Of a DNA stretch of 53,147 nucleotides, positions 1,462 to 47,369 are shown piece after piece. Position 1 is the first letter of the stretch; the number at the start of each line of letters is the position of its first letter. The DNA is taken from assembly GCA_021787555.1 (NCBI GenBank), contig JAJYLS010000003.1, forward strand, positions 1 to 53,147. The letters run 5' to 3'. A program made the position numbers and the translations under genes. This DNA is from Acidobacteriota bacterium. GTDB taxonomy: Bacteria; Acidobacteriota; Terriglobia; Bryobacterales; Bryobacteraceae. The notes beneath the pieces were generated by a model that was given only the letters and a program-made list of their open reading frames with translations, searched no databases and was not told the origin of the DNA.

Positions 1462-2598
1462 TCCGTATCCTCACCGCCCGGTTGGCCGTCCCCGGCGGTC
1501 TTGCCGGTCTTGCGCCAGACCAGGAATGCGTGGATCAGCCCATCGAGATCGCCTTCCAGCACGCGGTCCACGTCGCCCATCGCCAGCCGGCTGCGCAGGT
1601 CTTTCACCAGCCGGTAGGGCGCCAGCACGTAGTTCCGGATCTGGCTGCCGAAGTTGATGTCCAGCTTGGAATCTTCGGTCTTGCGCGTCTCCTCGCGCTT
1701 CTTTTCCAACTCGTATTCGTAGAGCCGCGCGCGCAGTTGCTTGAAGGCGCTGTCGCGGTTCTTGTGCTGCGAGCGCTCGTTCTGGCATTGCACCACGATC
1801 CTCGTGGGGAAGTGCGTGATGCGCACCGCCGAATCGGTCATGTTGACGTGCTGCCCCCCGGCGCCCGACGAGCGAAACGTGTCGATCCGGATATCGTCCT
1901 GCTTGATATCGATCTTGATCTCGTCGTCCACCTGCGGGTACACGAAAACCGAGGCGAACGAGGTGTGCCGCCGGGCGTTGGCGTCGAACGGCGAAATGCG
2001 CACCAGCCGGTGTACCCCGATCTCCGATTGCAGCAGCCCGTATGCGTTCTCGCCGTTCACCTCGAAGGTCACCGACTTGATGCCCGCACCTTCGCCTTCC
2101 AGGCGGTCCGTAATCACGGTCTTCAGTTCGTGCCGCTCCGCCCAGCGCAGGTACATGCGAAGAAGCATCTCGGCCCAATCCTGGCTCTCGGTGCCGCCGG
2201 CGCCGGGGTGGATGGTCACGATCGCGCTGCGGGCGTCGTTTTCGCCCGACAGCAGCATGGCGGTCTCGACCCTCTCGATGAAGTCCGCGTAGGACTTCAT
2301 CTCGCGCTCGATATCGCCGCTCACGTCTTCGCCCTCGCGCGCCAACTCGAACAGCGTGTCCAGATCGTCGGTCAGACCGCGCAGGCGCTCGTCATTCGCC
2401 AGCGCCTGCTCCAGGCGCTTGCGGTCCTGCATGAGCTTCTGGCTTTTCTCCGGCTGCGTCCAGAAGTCCGGCGCTGCCATGCGTTCTTCGATCGTGCTTA
2501 GCTTTTGTTTTTGCGCAGGGGCGTCAAAGATACCTCCGCACGGCCAAGGCTTGGTCGCGGAGGGGCAAATATTCACGTTGTAAGTCTTCAGCAGTCAT
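1458..2598 (-). CDS. prfB: Peptide chain release factor 2 with programmed +1 frameshift
   Basis: RF2 terminates translation at UGA and UAA. The body has the stop-codon-reading SPF tripeptide ('VRISPFDANARR') and the catalytic GGQ loop ('SSGAGGQHVNMTDSAV'). The gene is not one open frame. A short zero frame starts at ATG 2596-2598 (MTAEDLQREYLPLRDQALAV..), reaches in-frame TGA 2524-2526 after 24 codons, and the remaining 355 codons are in the +1 frame starting with GAC 2523-2525. The shift site reads CGGAGG-TAT-CTT-TGA-C, as in most bacterial prfB genes. The apparent upstream start inside the +1 frame at 2576 is thus not used. Downstream it overlaps the Sua5 gene. Confidence 0.96.
2523..2538 (-). 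promoter_or_regulatory. Autoregulatory +1 frameshift signal of prfB
   Basis: Read on the minus strand: a Shine-Dalgarno-like CGGAGG, three bases, then the slippery CTT-TGA-C. Low RF2 leaves the UGA unread and the ribosome slips from CUU to UUU, so RF2 controls its own synthesis. Spacing and sequence match the Escherichia coli site except for one base in the SD-like box. Confidence 0.93.
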
Positions 2599-15235: not shown

Positions 15236-15330
15236 AACTCACCACAGAGAACGGAGAACACCGAGCTGCACAGAGAAGACCAGGAATTTCTCTGTGTAAC
15301 CTCCGTTTCTCTGTGGCTCTGTGGTGAATT
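15236..15330. repeat. CACAGAG palindromic repeat, copy 1
   Basis: Left arm starts AACTCACCACAGAG and right arm ends CTCTGTGGTGAATT. Between them, CACAGAGA and TCTCTGTG form an inner stem. It begins two bases after the sod stop and lies upstream of the transhydrogenase gene. Confidence 0.85.
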
Positions 15331-17272: not shown

Positions 17273-17349
17273 AATTCACCGCCGAGGCGCAGAGACGCCG
17301 AGAAAGGCATTTGTTTTTCTCTGCGCCTCCGTGCCTCGGCGGTGAGTTT
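17273..17349. repeat. CACAGAG-type palindromic repeat, copy 2 (GC variant)
   Basis: Arms AATTCACCGCCGAGGCGCAG and CTGCGCCTCCGTGCCTCGGC followed by GGTGAGTT. The core differs (CCGCCGAGG for CCACAGAG) but layout and ends match the other copies. It is preceded by two AACCGGACA direct repeats (17240-17268). Confidence 0.75.
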
Positions 17350-17385: not shown

Positions 17386-19269
17386 ATGAGATCCGCCCGT
17401 CTTCTTCTCGCCCTGGCGGCTTGCGCAGCGGCGTTCGCGCAGTCGGAAGTCTCCATCGCCATGCCCAGGCCGGTGCCGGTGGTGGGCCGGTTTCTGAAGC
17501 CCTTCCATCTGGAGAAGCGCATCGTCGCCCCGCCGCTCCTGACGGATTCCGCGCGCCTGGAATCGCTGGTGCGCGGAGGGAACCTCTATCTTTCCGTCCA
17601 GGACGTGATCGCGCTGGTGCTGGAGAACAACCTCGATATCGCCGTGCAGCGCTATAGCCCCTTCCTGGCGCGCGAGGTGCTGCGGCGCGCGGAGAGCGGC
17701 AATGTCCTGCGGCAGGTGGATACGCCCATCATGCCCGGACCCACCAGCGTCAGCACGGCCGGCATCAGCGCCAACGCCAACGGCCTGGTGGGCGGCAGCG
17801 CGTTCAGCACGGGCGGCGGCATCGTGACGCAGGTGGGGCCGTCGCTGCCCAACCTGGACCCGTACTTCGCCATGAGCGCCACGGTGGCGCACTACACCAC
17901 GCCCGAAACCAACATTCTGCTGAACCAGACCTCGGCGCTGACCAACAGCTACCAGCAGATCGCCATGCAGTACGGCCAGCAGTTCGTCACCGGAACGAGC
18001 TTCTATGTGACCTTCGCCAATACCCGCCAATATCTCAACAGCGTCACGCCGCTGCTCAATCCATCGTTGAACGGGTACCTGGATATCACCGTCAATCAGC
18101 CGCTCCTGCAAGGTTTCAGCCTGGGGGTCAACAAGCGGGATATCGAGGTGGCGCGCAACAACATGAAGGTGAGCGACCTGCAAGTGCGATTGCAGGTGGC
18201 CACCACGGTGGCGGCGGTGCTCAACCTCTACTGGGACCTGGTGAGTTTCAACGACGCCGTGCGCATCAAGCAGAAAGCGCTGGCCACCGCCGGGCAGCTT
18301 TATGAAGGCAACCAGAAGCAGAAGGCCATCGGCGCGATGGCGGGCATTGAAGTGACCCGCGCGGCGGCCGGCGTTTCCGCCGCCAAGGAAGACCTGCTGA
18401 TCGCGCAGACCAATCTCGCGCAGCAGGAGATCGTGCTGAAGAACGCGCTCAGCCGCAACGCCATGGAGAACACCTGGCTGGACGACGTGCACATCATTCC
18501 CCTGGACCACATCGCGGTGCCCAAGACCGAGGAGATCCGGCCGGTGCAGGACCTGATCGGCGAGGCGCTGGCGCACCGCGTCGAGATCCAGCAGAGCCGG
18601 ATCAACCTGGCCAGCCGGCAGATCATGGTGCGGGGAGACAAGAACGGGCTGCTGCCCAGCCTCTCGGCCTTCGCCGAATTCACCAACAACGGCCTGGCGG
18701 GGCCGCCGAATCCGATGTACAACAACTGCTGCGGCGCGCCGGACGCCTATTTTGTCGGCGGCGCCGGCACGGTGATGTCCCAGCTCTTCCAGCGCAACTT
18801 CCCGAATTATTCCGCCGGATTTTCGCTGAACATACCCTTCCGCAACCGCACCGCACAGGCGGACTACGTGACCGACCAATTGCAGTTCCGGCAGAACCAG
18901 TTGCAGCTCCAGCGGGCGGTCAACCAGGTGCGGGTGGACGTGAAGACCGCGGTGATCGGCCTGGAGCAGGCGCGCGCCCGCTACCAGACCGCCGTGGACA
19001 CGCGCGTTCTGGCGGAGCAGAGCCTGGACGCGGAGCAGAAGCGCTTCCGCGCGGGCGTGGGAACGGTGGCGCTGGTCATCCAGGCGCAGCGCGACGTGGC
19101 CACCGACGAAGATGCCGAAGTCGAGGCCATGGCCAATTACACGCACGCGAAAATCTTCTTCGACCTGGCGCTTGGCCGCACGCTGGAAGTGAATCACATA
19201 TCGATGAAGGAGGCCATCGACGGCCGCGTCGATCGGGAGTCGATGATTCCCGCGGGGGTGACGAAATGA
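17386..19269 (+). CDS. TolC-family outer-membrane protein, paralogue 1
   Basis: A 627-residue outer-membrane channel protein with signal peptide 'MRSARLLLALAACAAAFAQS'. Two TolC-type halves are visible: a helical segment 'VQDVIALVLENNLDIAVQRY', the strand/turn 'LDITVNQPLLQGFSLGVNKR', long helices with 'QKALATAGQLYEGNQKQKA', and the C-terminal 'VRVDVKTAVIGLEQARARYQ'. TolC trimers join inner-membrane pumps and periplasmic adaptors into export ducts; neither partner is encoded here. The next gene is a paralogue and starts inside its stop (ATGA overlap). TAGAAT overlaps the start region, leaving almost no leader. Confidence 0.9.
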   Translation: MRSARLLLALAACAAAFAQSEVSIAMPRPVPVVGRFLKPFHLEKRIVAPPLLTDSARLESLVRGGNLYLSVQDVIALVLENNLDIAVQRYSPFLAREVLRRAESGNVLRQVDTPIMPGPTSVSTAGISANANGLVGGSAFSTGGGIVTQVGPSLPNLDPYFAMSATVAHYTTPETNILLNQTSALTNSYQQIAMQYGQQFVTGTSFYVTFANTRQYLNSVTPLLNPSLNGYLDITVNQPLLQGFSLGVNKRDIEVARNNMKVSDLQVRLQVATTVAAVLNLYWDLVSFNDAVRIKQKALATAGQLYEGNQKQKAIGAMAGIEVTRAAAGVSAAKEDLLIAQTNLAQQEIVLKNALSRNAMENTWLDDVHIIPLDHIAVPKTEEIRPVQDLIGEALAHRVEIQQSRINLASRQIMVRGDKNGLLPSLSAFAEFTNNGLAGPPNPMYNNCCGAPDAYFVGGAGTVMSQLFQRNFPNYSAGFSLNIPFRNRTAQADYVTDQLQFRQNQLQLQRAVNQVRVDVKTAVIGLEQARARYQTAVDTRVLAEQSLDAEQKRFRAGVGTVALVIQAQRDVATDEDAEVEAMANYTHAKIFFDLALGRTLEVNHISMKEAIDGRVDRESMIPAGVTK

Positions 19270-21227
19270 GCGCCCGGAGGCACGTCATTCACCACGGAGC
19301 CGCAGAGAGCACAGAGATCACACGGAAAAAACCTTCTTGCTTTTCTCCGTGCTTCCTCTGCGTTCTACGTGCCTCTGTGGTGAGTTGTCTTCTTCTCCTG
19401 GCCTCCTATGCCCAGGACCAGCCCATCACTATCGAACGGCCGCATTTGATGCTGCCGTTGCGGTCGTACATGGCGCCGTCGATCGGGCCGATCCGGCTTT
19501 CCAATTCCAAGCGCCTCTACGCCCTGATTCGCGCCGGGAACCTTTACCTGACCGTTCAGGACGCGCTGGCGCTGGCTATCGAGAACAACCTGAACCTGGA
19601 GATCGCGCGCTACGGGCCGTTGCTGGCCGATTCGGCGCTCCAGCGCGCCAAGGCCGGCGGGCCGTATCGCGGCGTGCCCAGCGCGAGCGCGCAGGTTTCC
19701 AGCGTGACGCCCGGAGTGGGCGTGAACGGCAGCACGCTAAGCGCCGGACTTTCGGGCGGGGGCGGAGGCGGCGGCGGAAACGGCGGGGCCAATACGACCA
19801 TCGAGCAGGTCGGGCAGATGGAACCGAATTTCGATCCGATCTTGCAGAGCACCGAAACGTTTTCGCATCTTACGGAGCCGCAGACCAACCAGGTGGTCAG
19901 CCAGACCAACGCGCTGGTGCAGGGAGTCCATACCTATAACACCGTGCTCAACCAGGGGCTGATCACCGGCGGGCAATTCCGCTACATCGATTACGAGCAA
20001 TACCTGAAGGAGAACGCGCCCAGCGATTACCTCAACCCCGTGACGGCGCCCTACATGGGGCTCTGGCTGCGGCAGCCGCTGCTCCAGGGCTTCGGCATCG
20101 CGCTGAACAACCGCGATATCCGGATCGCCCGCATCAATACGTTCGCCTCGCGGCAGGCCTTCCGGTCCGAGATGCTGAACCTGGCGGGCAGCGTGATCAA
20201 CCTCTATTGGAACTACGCCTCGGCTTATGAGGAACTGCGGCTGCGCCAGCGCGCGCTCGCGATCACCGAAAAATTCCGCGACGACACGAAGTACGAAATT
20301 TCGATAGGCGCCATCGCGGGGGTGGAACTGCCGCGCGCCGAAGCCGAGGTGGCCAGCCGCCGCCAGGACCTGAATATCGCCCAGGGCAACCTGCGGCAGC
20401 AAGCCGTCCTTCTCAAGGAAGCCATCAGCCATACCGAAGATCCGGCGCTGGAGAGCGCGGGAATTGTTCCGCTCGACCAGGTCGAGGTACCCGAGGAACT
20501 CGATCTGCCGCCGGTCCGGCAGCTTGTGGGCACTGCGGTTGCGCAGCGGCCCGACGTGCAGATCGCCAAGCTGAAGGACGAAACCGACGCCATCAACCTG
20601 CTGGGCACCACCAATCCGCTGCTACCGAGTTTGACGGCGACGGTGCAGACTTACAACCGCGCCGTGACCGGCACGCCGCAGTTAAGCGGCGGAACAGCGA
20701 ACCCGTATTTTGTGGGCGGGTATGGCAGCGCGCTCGGCCAGATCTTCCGCCGCAATTTCCCCAACGAAACGGCCAACGTGCTGTTCTCCATCCCGTTTGA
20801 AAACCGCCTGGCGCAAGGCGATTACGGGATCGACCAGTTGCAGTACCGGCAATCGCAGGTGGAGGCGCAGCGGGACCGCAACCGGGTCCTGGTGGACGTG
20901 TCGAGCCAGGCGGCCGCGCTGCGGCAGGCGCGGGCGCGGTACGACGTGGCCCGGGAAGAGCGGGTGCTCGACGAGCAGTTGCTCGCGGCGGAGCGGCGCA
21001 AGTCCTACGGCCCGGAGACGTTCAACTACATCATGGCCGACCAGCGGGCGTTGATTGCCGCGCAGCTTTTGGAGATGAACGCCATGGCGGCGTACGCCCA
21101 CGCCCGCGCCGCGCTCGACCAGGTTCTGGGCACCACCCTCGAGCGCTACCACATCTCGCTGGAGGAAGGCCTCCGCGGCCGCGTCGAGCGGCAATCGACC
21201 CCGCCCGTAGGGGCCGGGGGCCGATAA
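19266..21227 (+). CDS. TolC-family outer-membrane protein, paralogue 2, with repeat-derived signal region
   Basis: A 653-residue paralogue of the preceding protein, sharing 'AGNLYLTVQDALALAIENNL', 'GLWLRQPLLQGFGIALNNRD' and 'YFVGGYGSALGQIFRRNFPN'. It starts at ATG 19266 overlapping the upstream stop by four bases. Residues about 8-40 are encoded by a CACAGAG palindrome copy that has been read through in frame; its right arm forms part of the hydrophobic signal segment 'LCVLRASVVSCLLLLASYAQ'. Without the repeat the signal would have to begin at a GTG at 19378 or 19381 and be very short. A run of glycines (about residue 158) is notable. Its last codons lie in a 12-bp GC-rich inverted repeat. 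Confidence 0.88.
   Translation: MSARRHVIHHGAAESTEITRKKPSCFSPCFLCVLRASVVSCLLLLASYAQDQPITIERPHLMLPLRSYMAPSIGPIRLSNSKRLYALIRAGNLYLTVQDALALAIENNLNLEIARYGPLLADSALQRAKAGGPYRGVPSASAQVSSVTPGVGVNGSTLSAGLSGGGGGGGGNGGANTTIEQVGQMEPNFDPILQSTETFSHLTEPQTNQVVSQTNALVQGVHTYNTVLNQGLITGGQFRYIDYEQYLKENAPSDYLNPVTAPYMGLWLRQPLLQGFGIALNNRDIRIARINTFASRQAFRSEMLNLAGSVINLYWNYASAYEELRLRQRALAITEKFRDDTKYEISIGAIAGVELPRAEAEVASRRQDLNIAQGNLRQQAVLLKEAISHTEDPALESAGIVPLDQVEVPEELDLPPVRQLVGTAVAQRPDVQIAKLKDETDAINLLGTTNPLLPSLTATVQTYNRAVTGTPQLSGGTANPYFVGGYGSALGQIFRRNFPNETANVLFSIPFENRLAQGDYGIDQLQYRQSQVEAQRDRNRVLVDVSSQAAALRQARARYDVAREERVLDEQLLAAERRKSYGPETFNYIMADQRALIAAQLLEMNAMAAYAHARAALDQVLGTTLERYHISLEEGLRGRVERQSTPPVGAGGR
19287..19386. 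repeat. CACAGAG palindromic repeat, copy 3, inside a coding region
   Basis: Arms ATTCACCACGGAG and CTCTGTGGTGAGTT with inner ACGGAAAAA/TTTTCTCCGT pairing. It lies wholly within the 5' coding region of TolC paralogue 2, with no stop codon in that frame. Confidence 0.85.
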
Positions 21228-24503: not shown

Positions 24504-24604
24504 GCTCACCACAGAGTCACGGAGTGCACAGAGGAAGCACAGAGAAGCTCTTTGAGGTTTTCTCTGTGAAGCCTCTGTGTTCTCTGTGGCTCTGTGGTGA
24601 ATAG
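24504..24604. repeat. CACAGAG palindromic repeat, copy 4, inside the arg operon
   Basis: Arms GCTCACCACAGAGTCACGGAG and CTCTGTGGCTCTGTGGTGAAT with inner AGCACAGAGA/TCTCTGTG pairing. It fills nearly the whole argC-argB gap (24497-24609), so the mRNA must carry it as a hairpin. Confidence 0.85.
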
Positions 24605-28856: not shown

Positions 28857-28950
28857 TTCACCACAGAGACACCGAGAACACGGAGATTGCACAGAGGAAA
28901 ACAAGGGTTCTCTGTGCTTGCTCTGCGTTCTCAGTGGCTCTGTGGTGCTG
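28857..28950. repeat. CACAGAG palindromic repeat, copy 5, spanning the tyrS end
   Basis: Arms TTCACCACAGAGACACCGAG and CTCAGTGGCTCTGTGGTGCT. On the minus strand tyrS runs into it: its last codons and TGA (28931-28933) are repeat sequence, and the other arm abuts the folP start codon. Confidence 0.85.
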
Positions 28951-47064: not shown

Positions 47065-47369
47065 ATGAGGGAAGGCCCCTTGGAACCGTCTTGCAGGAGA
47101 AGGTTCCAAACCACCTCCCGCTGCTGCGGGCAAACGGTGAAGATCCCGAAAGCCAATGGCGGGGAGAGGACGTTGGGGATACCGACGGTCTCAGATCGAA
47201 TCGCGCAAATGGTCGTGAAGAATCGACTGGAAGCAGTGGTGGAGCCACTATTCCTGCCGGCATCGTATGGGTATCGCGCGGGGAAGTCGGCGTTGGATGC
47301 AGTGGGGTAGGCGCGGCAGAAGTGCTGGGCCTACGACTGGGTTTGCGACCTGGACATCAAGGGCTACTT
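47065..47369 (+). pseudogene. Group II intron reverse transcriptase, N-terminal piece
   Basis: 'KIPKANGGERTLGIPTVSDR' then 'IAQMVVKNRLEAVVEPLFLP' and 'ASYGYRAGKSALDAVG' are classic intron RT finger motifs; after a TAG at 47308 the frame continues 'ARQKCWAYDWVCDLDIKGY'. A neighbouring frame upstream reads 'WNRLAGEGSKPPP', showing a frameshift in the N-terminus. The catalytic YADD is not present. Confidence 0.85.

Follow-up and report, generated by a model that had tools for sequence, protein, structure and literature searches.

How a palindromic repeat came to lie in the signal-peptide coding region of tolC2, the second gene of a tandem tolC pair in an Acidobacteriota bacterium, and whether the repeat is translated there, is the question raised by this locus. 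The window, which is the whole stretch of DNA analysed (53,147 nt, JAJYLS010000003.1), is a single contig from a draft genome of 5.9 Mb in 516 contigs. The genome is Solibacteraceae-like and is labelled G000. Our results suggested that a dispersed palindrome, similar to a miniature inverted-repeat transposable element (MITE), was inserted in-frame into an existing tolC2 signal peptide, and that the altered leader is probably read through, exported and tolerated. We put the probability of this reading at about 0.82 on the evidence of the sequence. The features of the locus are the following (window positions).

17386-19269, plus strand: tolC1, outer membrane efflux protein (OEP, PF02321, by Pfam), whose stop overlaps the tolC2 start.
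19254-19261, plus strand: Shine-Dalgarno-like GGGGGTGA ahead of the tolC2 ATG (duplex −9.9 kcal/mol with the anti-Shine-Dalgarno sequence).
19266-21227, plus strand: tolC2, OEP family (PF02321), 653 residues, by open reading frame (ORF) and Pfam.
19266-19269, plus strand: ATGA start-stop overlap, probable ancestral start, kept in other tandem pairs.
19266-19287, plus strand: start and n-region of the original leader, MSARRHV..., preceding the insertion, by orthologue alignment.
19288-19384, no strand assigned: palindromic repeat, inserted in-frame and free of stops, HHGAAESTEITRKKPSCFSPCFLCVLRASVV, by copies, fold and models.
19288-19329, plus strand: left arm (approximate), polar and net-basic coding, by fold and hydropathy.
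19343-19384, plus strand: right arm (approximate), hydrophobic coding, FSPCFLCVLRASVV, by hydropathy.
19377-19382, plus strand: GTG GTG closing the repeat on the right, the sole in-frame alternative starts beside the h-region; no Shine-Dalgarno match.
19383-19412, plus strand: leftover ancestral h-region and cleavage motif SCLLLLASYA, with the predicted cleavage before Q at 19413.

The tolC2 product matches PF02321 in two stretches (E 6.8e-21), while the TolC subfamily model of NCBIfam stayed under its cut-off (39 vs 225). The earlier note had claimed that the repeat lies within tolC2, stop-free in the frame of the gene and behind the start codon. This was confirmed: the ORF is open for 653 codons and reads through the repeat, which begins 7 codons past ATG 19266. 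The repeat was also rightly placed in the signal-peptide region, and its extent is now mapped to 19288-19384, about 97 nt. The ATGA overlap with tolC1 recurs in 7 of 9 further tandem tolC pairs examined, the two exceptions being L014 (a 4-nt gap) and L015 (whose overlap is TTGA, followed by a later ATG). Because the overlap is conserved, ATG 19266 is probably the ancestral start and the in-frame GTGs, whose positions are 19377 and 19380 and not 19378 and 19381 as given before, are unlikely starts.

The N-terminus was compared with orthologues, the check that the earlier note had named, and the result agreed that the repeat lies in the part encoding the signal peptide. The leader here reads MSARRHVI, repeat, SCLLLLASYAQDQP. 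Repeat-free leaders were found in L039 (MNTREIRRTLAAGVCLVSLCGAQDQP; a peat-soil metagenome-assembled genome (MAG) of Solibacteraceae, 64% to tolC2) and L040 (MSPRKWSAILLAGACLLLQAPAQGQP; a Terriglobia MAG, 61%). MSARRHV and SCLLLLASYA/QDQP align with these intact leaders, and CLLLLASYA, outside the repeat, is the orthologues' own h-region. Since both halves of an orthologue-like leader flank the repeat, the alignment indicates that the repeat split a pre-existing signal peptide and did not create one. The proposal that the repeat had been turned into a signal peptide was thus not supported, as repeat-free orthologues already carry ordinary leaders. The statement that the right arm gives most of the hydrophobic segment held in part: the arm does encode FSPCFLCVLRASVV(S), but the cleavage-side CLLLLASYA is not its product. 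The putative Sec-type features of the leader (basic n-region, h-region and A-x-A-like site) were read by inspection and orthologue alignment.

In the proposed mechanism, the in-frame insertion of a MITE-like palindromic element would have separated the n-region of the existing tolC2 signal peptide from its h-region. Translation would begin at the original ATG, coupled to tolC1 termination via ATGA, and the ribosome would read through the hairpin sequence. The product would carry a leader of about 49 residues, composed of MSARRHV, about 32 repeat-encoded residues (polar/basic, then hydrophobic) and SCLLLLASYA/QDQ. Sec export and cleavage would persist at the original site. The sequence itself shows that there is an insertion, that it keeps the frame, that the start is conserved, that such events recur and in which order the hydropathy runs; reading of the hairpin by the ribosome, export, cleavage, tolerance as opposed to benefit, and a mobile element are inferred from it.

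To which family does the inserted sequence belong? It is an imperfect palindrome whose predicted hairpin has −53.9 kcal/mol (z −4.8; 0 of 200 shuffles equally good), and one of its arms aligns at 80-85% with two other copies in the window. BLAST of the repeat against its own genome gave 69 strand-wise matches, and a covariance model built from 40 copies gave at least 144 (150 of 1537 candidates scored). With nhmmer over 76 sequences fetched from parts of G000, 83 non-overlapping places were detected, including half copies, a shorter subtype and the five window copies. Most copies are intergenic. The consensus ends, TTCACCACAGAG and CTCTGTGGTGAA, form terminal inverted repeats, and the copies are gene-less, which fits a MITE. 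Repetitive extragenic palindromic (REP) sequences, which are 20-40 nt with a GTAG-like tag, differ from these copies of about 97 nt with TTCACC/GGTGAA ends. The other copies in the window are:

15239-15327, no strand assigned: repeat copy (nhmmer).
17275-17345, no strand assigned: shorter, GC-richer variant just upstream of tolC1 (copy comparison, nhmmer).
24506-24601, no strand assigned: repeat copy (copy comparison, nhmmer).
28857-28947, no strand assigned: repeat copy (copy comparison, nhmmer).

A stop-free frame is unsurprising in such a sequence because openness is a property of the family: 206 of 264 frames across 44 copies are open, and 4 of 6 in the tolC2 copy. The open frame was thus rejected as a sign of coding. 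A regulatory or Rfam-type RNA was also rejected, as no Rfam match was found at the repeat; elsewhere in the window, at 47067-47189, Rfam matched RF01999, a domain of group II introns, at 56.1 bits. Genes entering a repeat often stop at the TGA within its GGTGA end (many copies, e.g. L044, L046 and L049), and as the TGA lies inside that end, the repeat itself supplies their stop codon.

When every G000 repeat was read outward, 10 of the 83 places showed a start, a short stretch, the repeat, an h-region and a cleavage or lipobox motif. The leaders of these proteins, and with them the exported status, were judged by inspection. The ten cases are:

Window 19266-21227: tolC2.
L041: FlgI, PF02119 complete.
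L044: TPR protein, GTG start.
L045: exported protein.
L065: methyltransferase, with a second partial repeat copy.
L072: lipoprotein.
L085: phosphoesterase.
L094: glycosidase-like lipoprotein.
L103: lipoprotein.
L112: GDSL esterase.

The distance from start to repeat is 1-8 codons in nine of the ten and about 22 codons in L065. Pfam matches were obtained in the bodies of seven. Plain orthologue leaders were found in four further cases, FlgI (MKKRCLIALLLFLLRPAPAPAARLKD), the methyltransferase (MKRTAVFLALALASGLSAQVATDANK), the GDSL esterase (MRAGRWVVLFAAGVSAFAQTHW) and the phosphoesterase (MSLMRWRVAAALALMVFAAG), so that with tolC2 the in-frame insertion is missing from the orthologues of five. 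The repeat in L062 (about 1517-1607, minus strand) was left out of the ten, as its repeat-end GTG is probably the start codon of a pseudopilin (VKRHGERG/LTLVELI); the phosphoesterase L085 may be alike.

Another 50 ORFs run through a repeat and extend at least 30 codons beyond it in both directions; among them no insertion into a mature domain was seen, and four match Pfam. Three candidates for mid-gene insertion, L060 (alcohol dehydrogenase), L092 (DNA polymerase III delta') and L089 (LptC), were rejected as each has its own ATG after the repeat; a fourth, L104, was rejected because its ORF is the GxxExxY gene described below. From these comparisons, tolC2 is one instance of a genome-wide pattern that is real and mechanistically sensible, with the same event seen in about ten exported proteins of G000.

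The coding property of the palindrome offers a reason for this pattern. In 110 of 110 copy-strands (copies of at least 85 nt), and whichever of the three frames is read, hydrophobicity is greater in the right half than in the left. Mean hydropathy is about −1.9 for the left half, which is net positive, and +0.6 to +1.2 for the right. In the genetic code, hydrophobic codons (T at the second position) pair with polar codons (A at the second position), and it is this pairing by palindromy that leads to the polar-then-hydrophobic order. As the palindrome is the same in both orientations, any in-frame insertion gives a polar-basic and then a hydrophobic stretch, which is the order of a signal peptide. 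Tolerance in leaders is therefore expected, and the insertion in tolC2 would be tolerated in this way in either orientation. In the GC-richer repeats of three other genomes (G030, G001 and G076) the right halves are less hydrophobic.

An alternative is that the repeat stays untranslated: its terminal GTG GTG would be the start codon, the start would be displaced, and the leader would be MVSCLLLLASYA. Most copies end in GTGGTGA, with the GTG in phase in most cases in the frame used, and a bias of frame is predicted by this explanation as well. Such a start looks natural for the L062 pseudopilin and for the phosphoesterase L085 (VKLGLVALLGLSLAAQ). For most of the cases, however, it would give uncharged leaders of 6-13 residues, e.g. 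MVGLILTGC and MVILNGC, and in L072, which is read in the other frame, no GTG of this kind is in phase. Mean Shine-Dalgarno energies were −5.3 for the upstream starts (n=11), +0.6 for the repeat-end GTGs (n=8), which have no Shine-Dalgarno match, and −2.6 for background. The conserved ATGA overlap and the nearby in-frame ATGs would also be left unexplained. We consider a displaced start improbable.

The repeat might instead have been recruited as a selected innovation that improves or regulates the leader, through an extended n-region or hairpin-controlled translation. Recurrence in ten leaders could reflect selection, as could the palindromes in tolC2 leaders of other genera. In G030 this leader holds a different palindrome (L012 1422-1493; arms of 28 nt, 93% complementary), in-frame after the ATGA start. 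It has 73 strand-wise matches in G030, mostly to one arm only; among 30 loci, a regular-expression search for full-length copies matched that of tolC2 alone, the other copies varying mid-sequence. The tolC2 leader of another genome, G020 (L010), resembles by eye half of such a repeat, and seven other tolC2 leaders have no room for a palindrome. The bipartite hydrophobic layout also resembles that of extended signal peptides. But tolerance alone predicts the same pattern, the order being polar-then-hydrophobic in every frame. Hairpin strength is unaltered in captured copies (10 vs 65 copies of at least 65 nt, p 0.98), and since captured hairpins are no weaker than others, selection to ease translation is not seen. 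Recruitment seems about as improbable as the displaced start.

Captures of the R1-type repeat itself were looked for in four other genomes, where 50 places were scanned and 14 rows passed a loose filter. One was accepted, a GH28 protein of G020 (L137) with its own repeat variant, MKTQNSI, repeat, GGLILAVLSSYAQD. The remaining rows were dropped by inspection as belonging to the L124 tandem array, having their own later start (as L131) or lacking a leader; none was accepted in G030, G001 or G076.

That the insertion inactivated tolC2 and left a young pseudogene is very improbable: a 32-residue leader insertion could block export and a strong hairpin follows just after the start, but tolC2 keeps its 653 stop-free codons and 60% identity to the G020 orthologue (residues 40-647), none of the ten affected ORFs is interrupted within the length seen, with FlgI complete, and ten pseudogenes free of frameshifts are unlikely.

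Several points weigh against the reading of a translated, tolerated insertion. G000 is a draft, metagenome-like assembly, and the genomes compared are of other genera. No target-site duplication was seen by eye in the inspected flanks of the copies, and the relatives show no empty site; neither is visible because no same-genus genome is among those compared. L045, L072 and L103 have no Pfam or NCBIfam match, and the starts of L094 and L103 have no Shine-Dalgarno match. The strength of this match discriminates weakly, as 13 assumed gene starts in the window average just −3.0, and a T-rich repeat arm could not yield one anyway. Starts within 12 codons number 14, 4 and 2 by frame, spurious ORFs included. 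The captured hairpins, as said, are not weaker. The leader bias could also partly reflect insertion near gene starts, most copies being intergenic.

Where the palindromes came from was approached through the single PF13366 gene of G000 (TIGR04256, GxxExxY; 159.6 bits vs a cut-off of 35). Half-repeats border this gene exactly, one on the left (L104 1497-1542) and one on the right (1895-1942), and together they make a unit of 446 bp:

L104 1497-1942, which is G000 contig C274 6696-7141: GxxExxY unit.

PF13366 occurs in 24 of 61 genomes of the taxonomic family, and all nine genomes matching the repeat model at E <= 1e-6 have it (Fisher p 7.5e-5, uncorrected for relatedness). Flanking inverted repeats with a score of at least 14 were detected at 13 of 30 GxxExxY loci in the family vs 2 of 502 control windows, both of the latter at L231, next to a tandem repeat array. 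Among the 13, the arms of L248 differ from the others. Eight loci in eight genera have common neighbour genes, so the GxxExxY gene is resident there, and all eight are flanked by inverted repeats, although L231 and L227 exceed their own controls by little or not at all. The flanks best match the dispersed copies of their own genome in 4 of 5 genomes, G001 excepted, in a comparison that left out the two L104 half copies and the L124 tandem array. That array (G030 contig C165, L124 1345-2016) has five tandem palindrome copies at a period of about 144 nt and adjoins the G030 GxxExxY gene. On plasmids, inverted repeats exceeded controls at 4 of 4 GxxExxY loci, including one of Bacteroides finegoldii (arms TTCACCACAGAGGACGCAGAGG) and one of Sphingomonas parapaucimobilis (L254), where the gene and its inverted repeats lie between fabD and fabG.

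The inverted repeats at 13 of 30 family loci suggest that the palindromes derive from a GxxExxY element. The arrangement is reminiscent of a REPtron, or of an element accompanied by its MITEs, and the palindromes may be mobile. More tentatively, GxxExxY proteins, which are of the PD-(D/E)XK superfamily and of unknown function, might be the mobilising enzymes of a widespread class of palindromes with CACAGAG/CGCGGAG-type units: the resident gene would stay between the arms while gene-less copies spread and accumulate in-frame in signal peptides through their polar-then-hydrophobic coding, whatever the orientation. We hold this for possible, with the balance on the doubtful side. One of these palindrome families may have originated from a REP-associated tyrosine transposase (RAYT), since about 600 structures of class 3 RAYT are reported for Solibacter (PMC6006769).

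The recurrent splitting of unrelated signal peptides in a single genome and at one leader position, with the unsplit state preserved in orthologues, reveals where a coding genome can absorb repeats, and the polar-then-hydrophobic peptides of palindromes offer a simple reason. Automatic start calling may misplace the starts of such genes. The GxxExxY association suggests, in a form that can be tested, how a class of dispersed repeats may have originated, and what a large protein family whose function is unknown might do.

Coding palindromes are a known kind, and there is an earlier report of one repeat that forms part of a predicted signal peptide; what appears to be new is the leader-specific pattern, together with the link to GxxExxY. 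In the literature covered, which included few subscription journals, we found neither an account of recurrent splitting of signal peptides nor one connecting GxxExxY to palindromes; a search on the repeat itself gave only unrelated matches among those listed, and the papers found to use the name GxxExxY do so in passing.

Among known systems, the TolC2 body is like other TolC/OEP efflux proteins in its PF02321 domain and tandem pair, and its leader alone is unusual. Rickettsia palindromic elements (RPE) and other coding palindromes are reported as multi-copy sequences of about 100-150 bp that lie in-frame in conserved genes and are translated (PMC2229807, PMC10969869). The present repeat is similar as a kind, being a multi-copy, dispersed palindrome of about 97 nt found in-frame in conserved genes. 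It differs in phylum and in its targets: RPEs are reported in many unrelated metabolic genes, whereas each coding case found here is the leader of an exported protein and not a mature part. YPAL/RU-2 of Yersinia (YPO1552) makes an N-terminal fusion at few loci; here ten leaders in one genome are involved, the start and the h-region flank the repeat, and orthologues support five. In the REP/REPtron system (RAYT, TnpAREP), palindromes flank a resident gene that is mostly single-copy, and relatives of these palindromes are dispersed over the genome (PMC6006769), which is similar to the GxxExxY arrangement. However, the flanked gene here encodes GxxExxY and not an HUH Y1 enzyme, and the repeats are about 97 nt with ends free of the GTAG tag.

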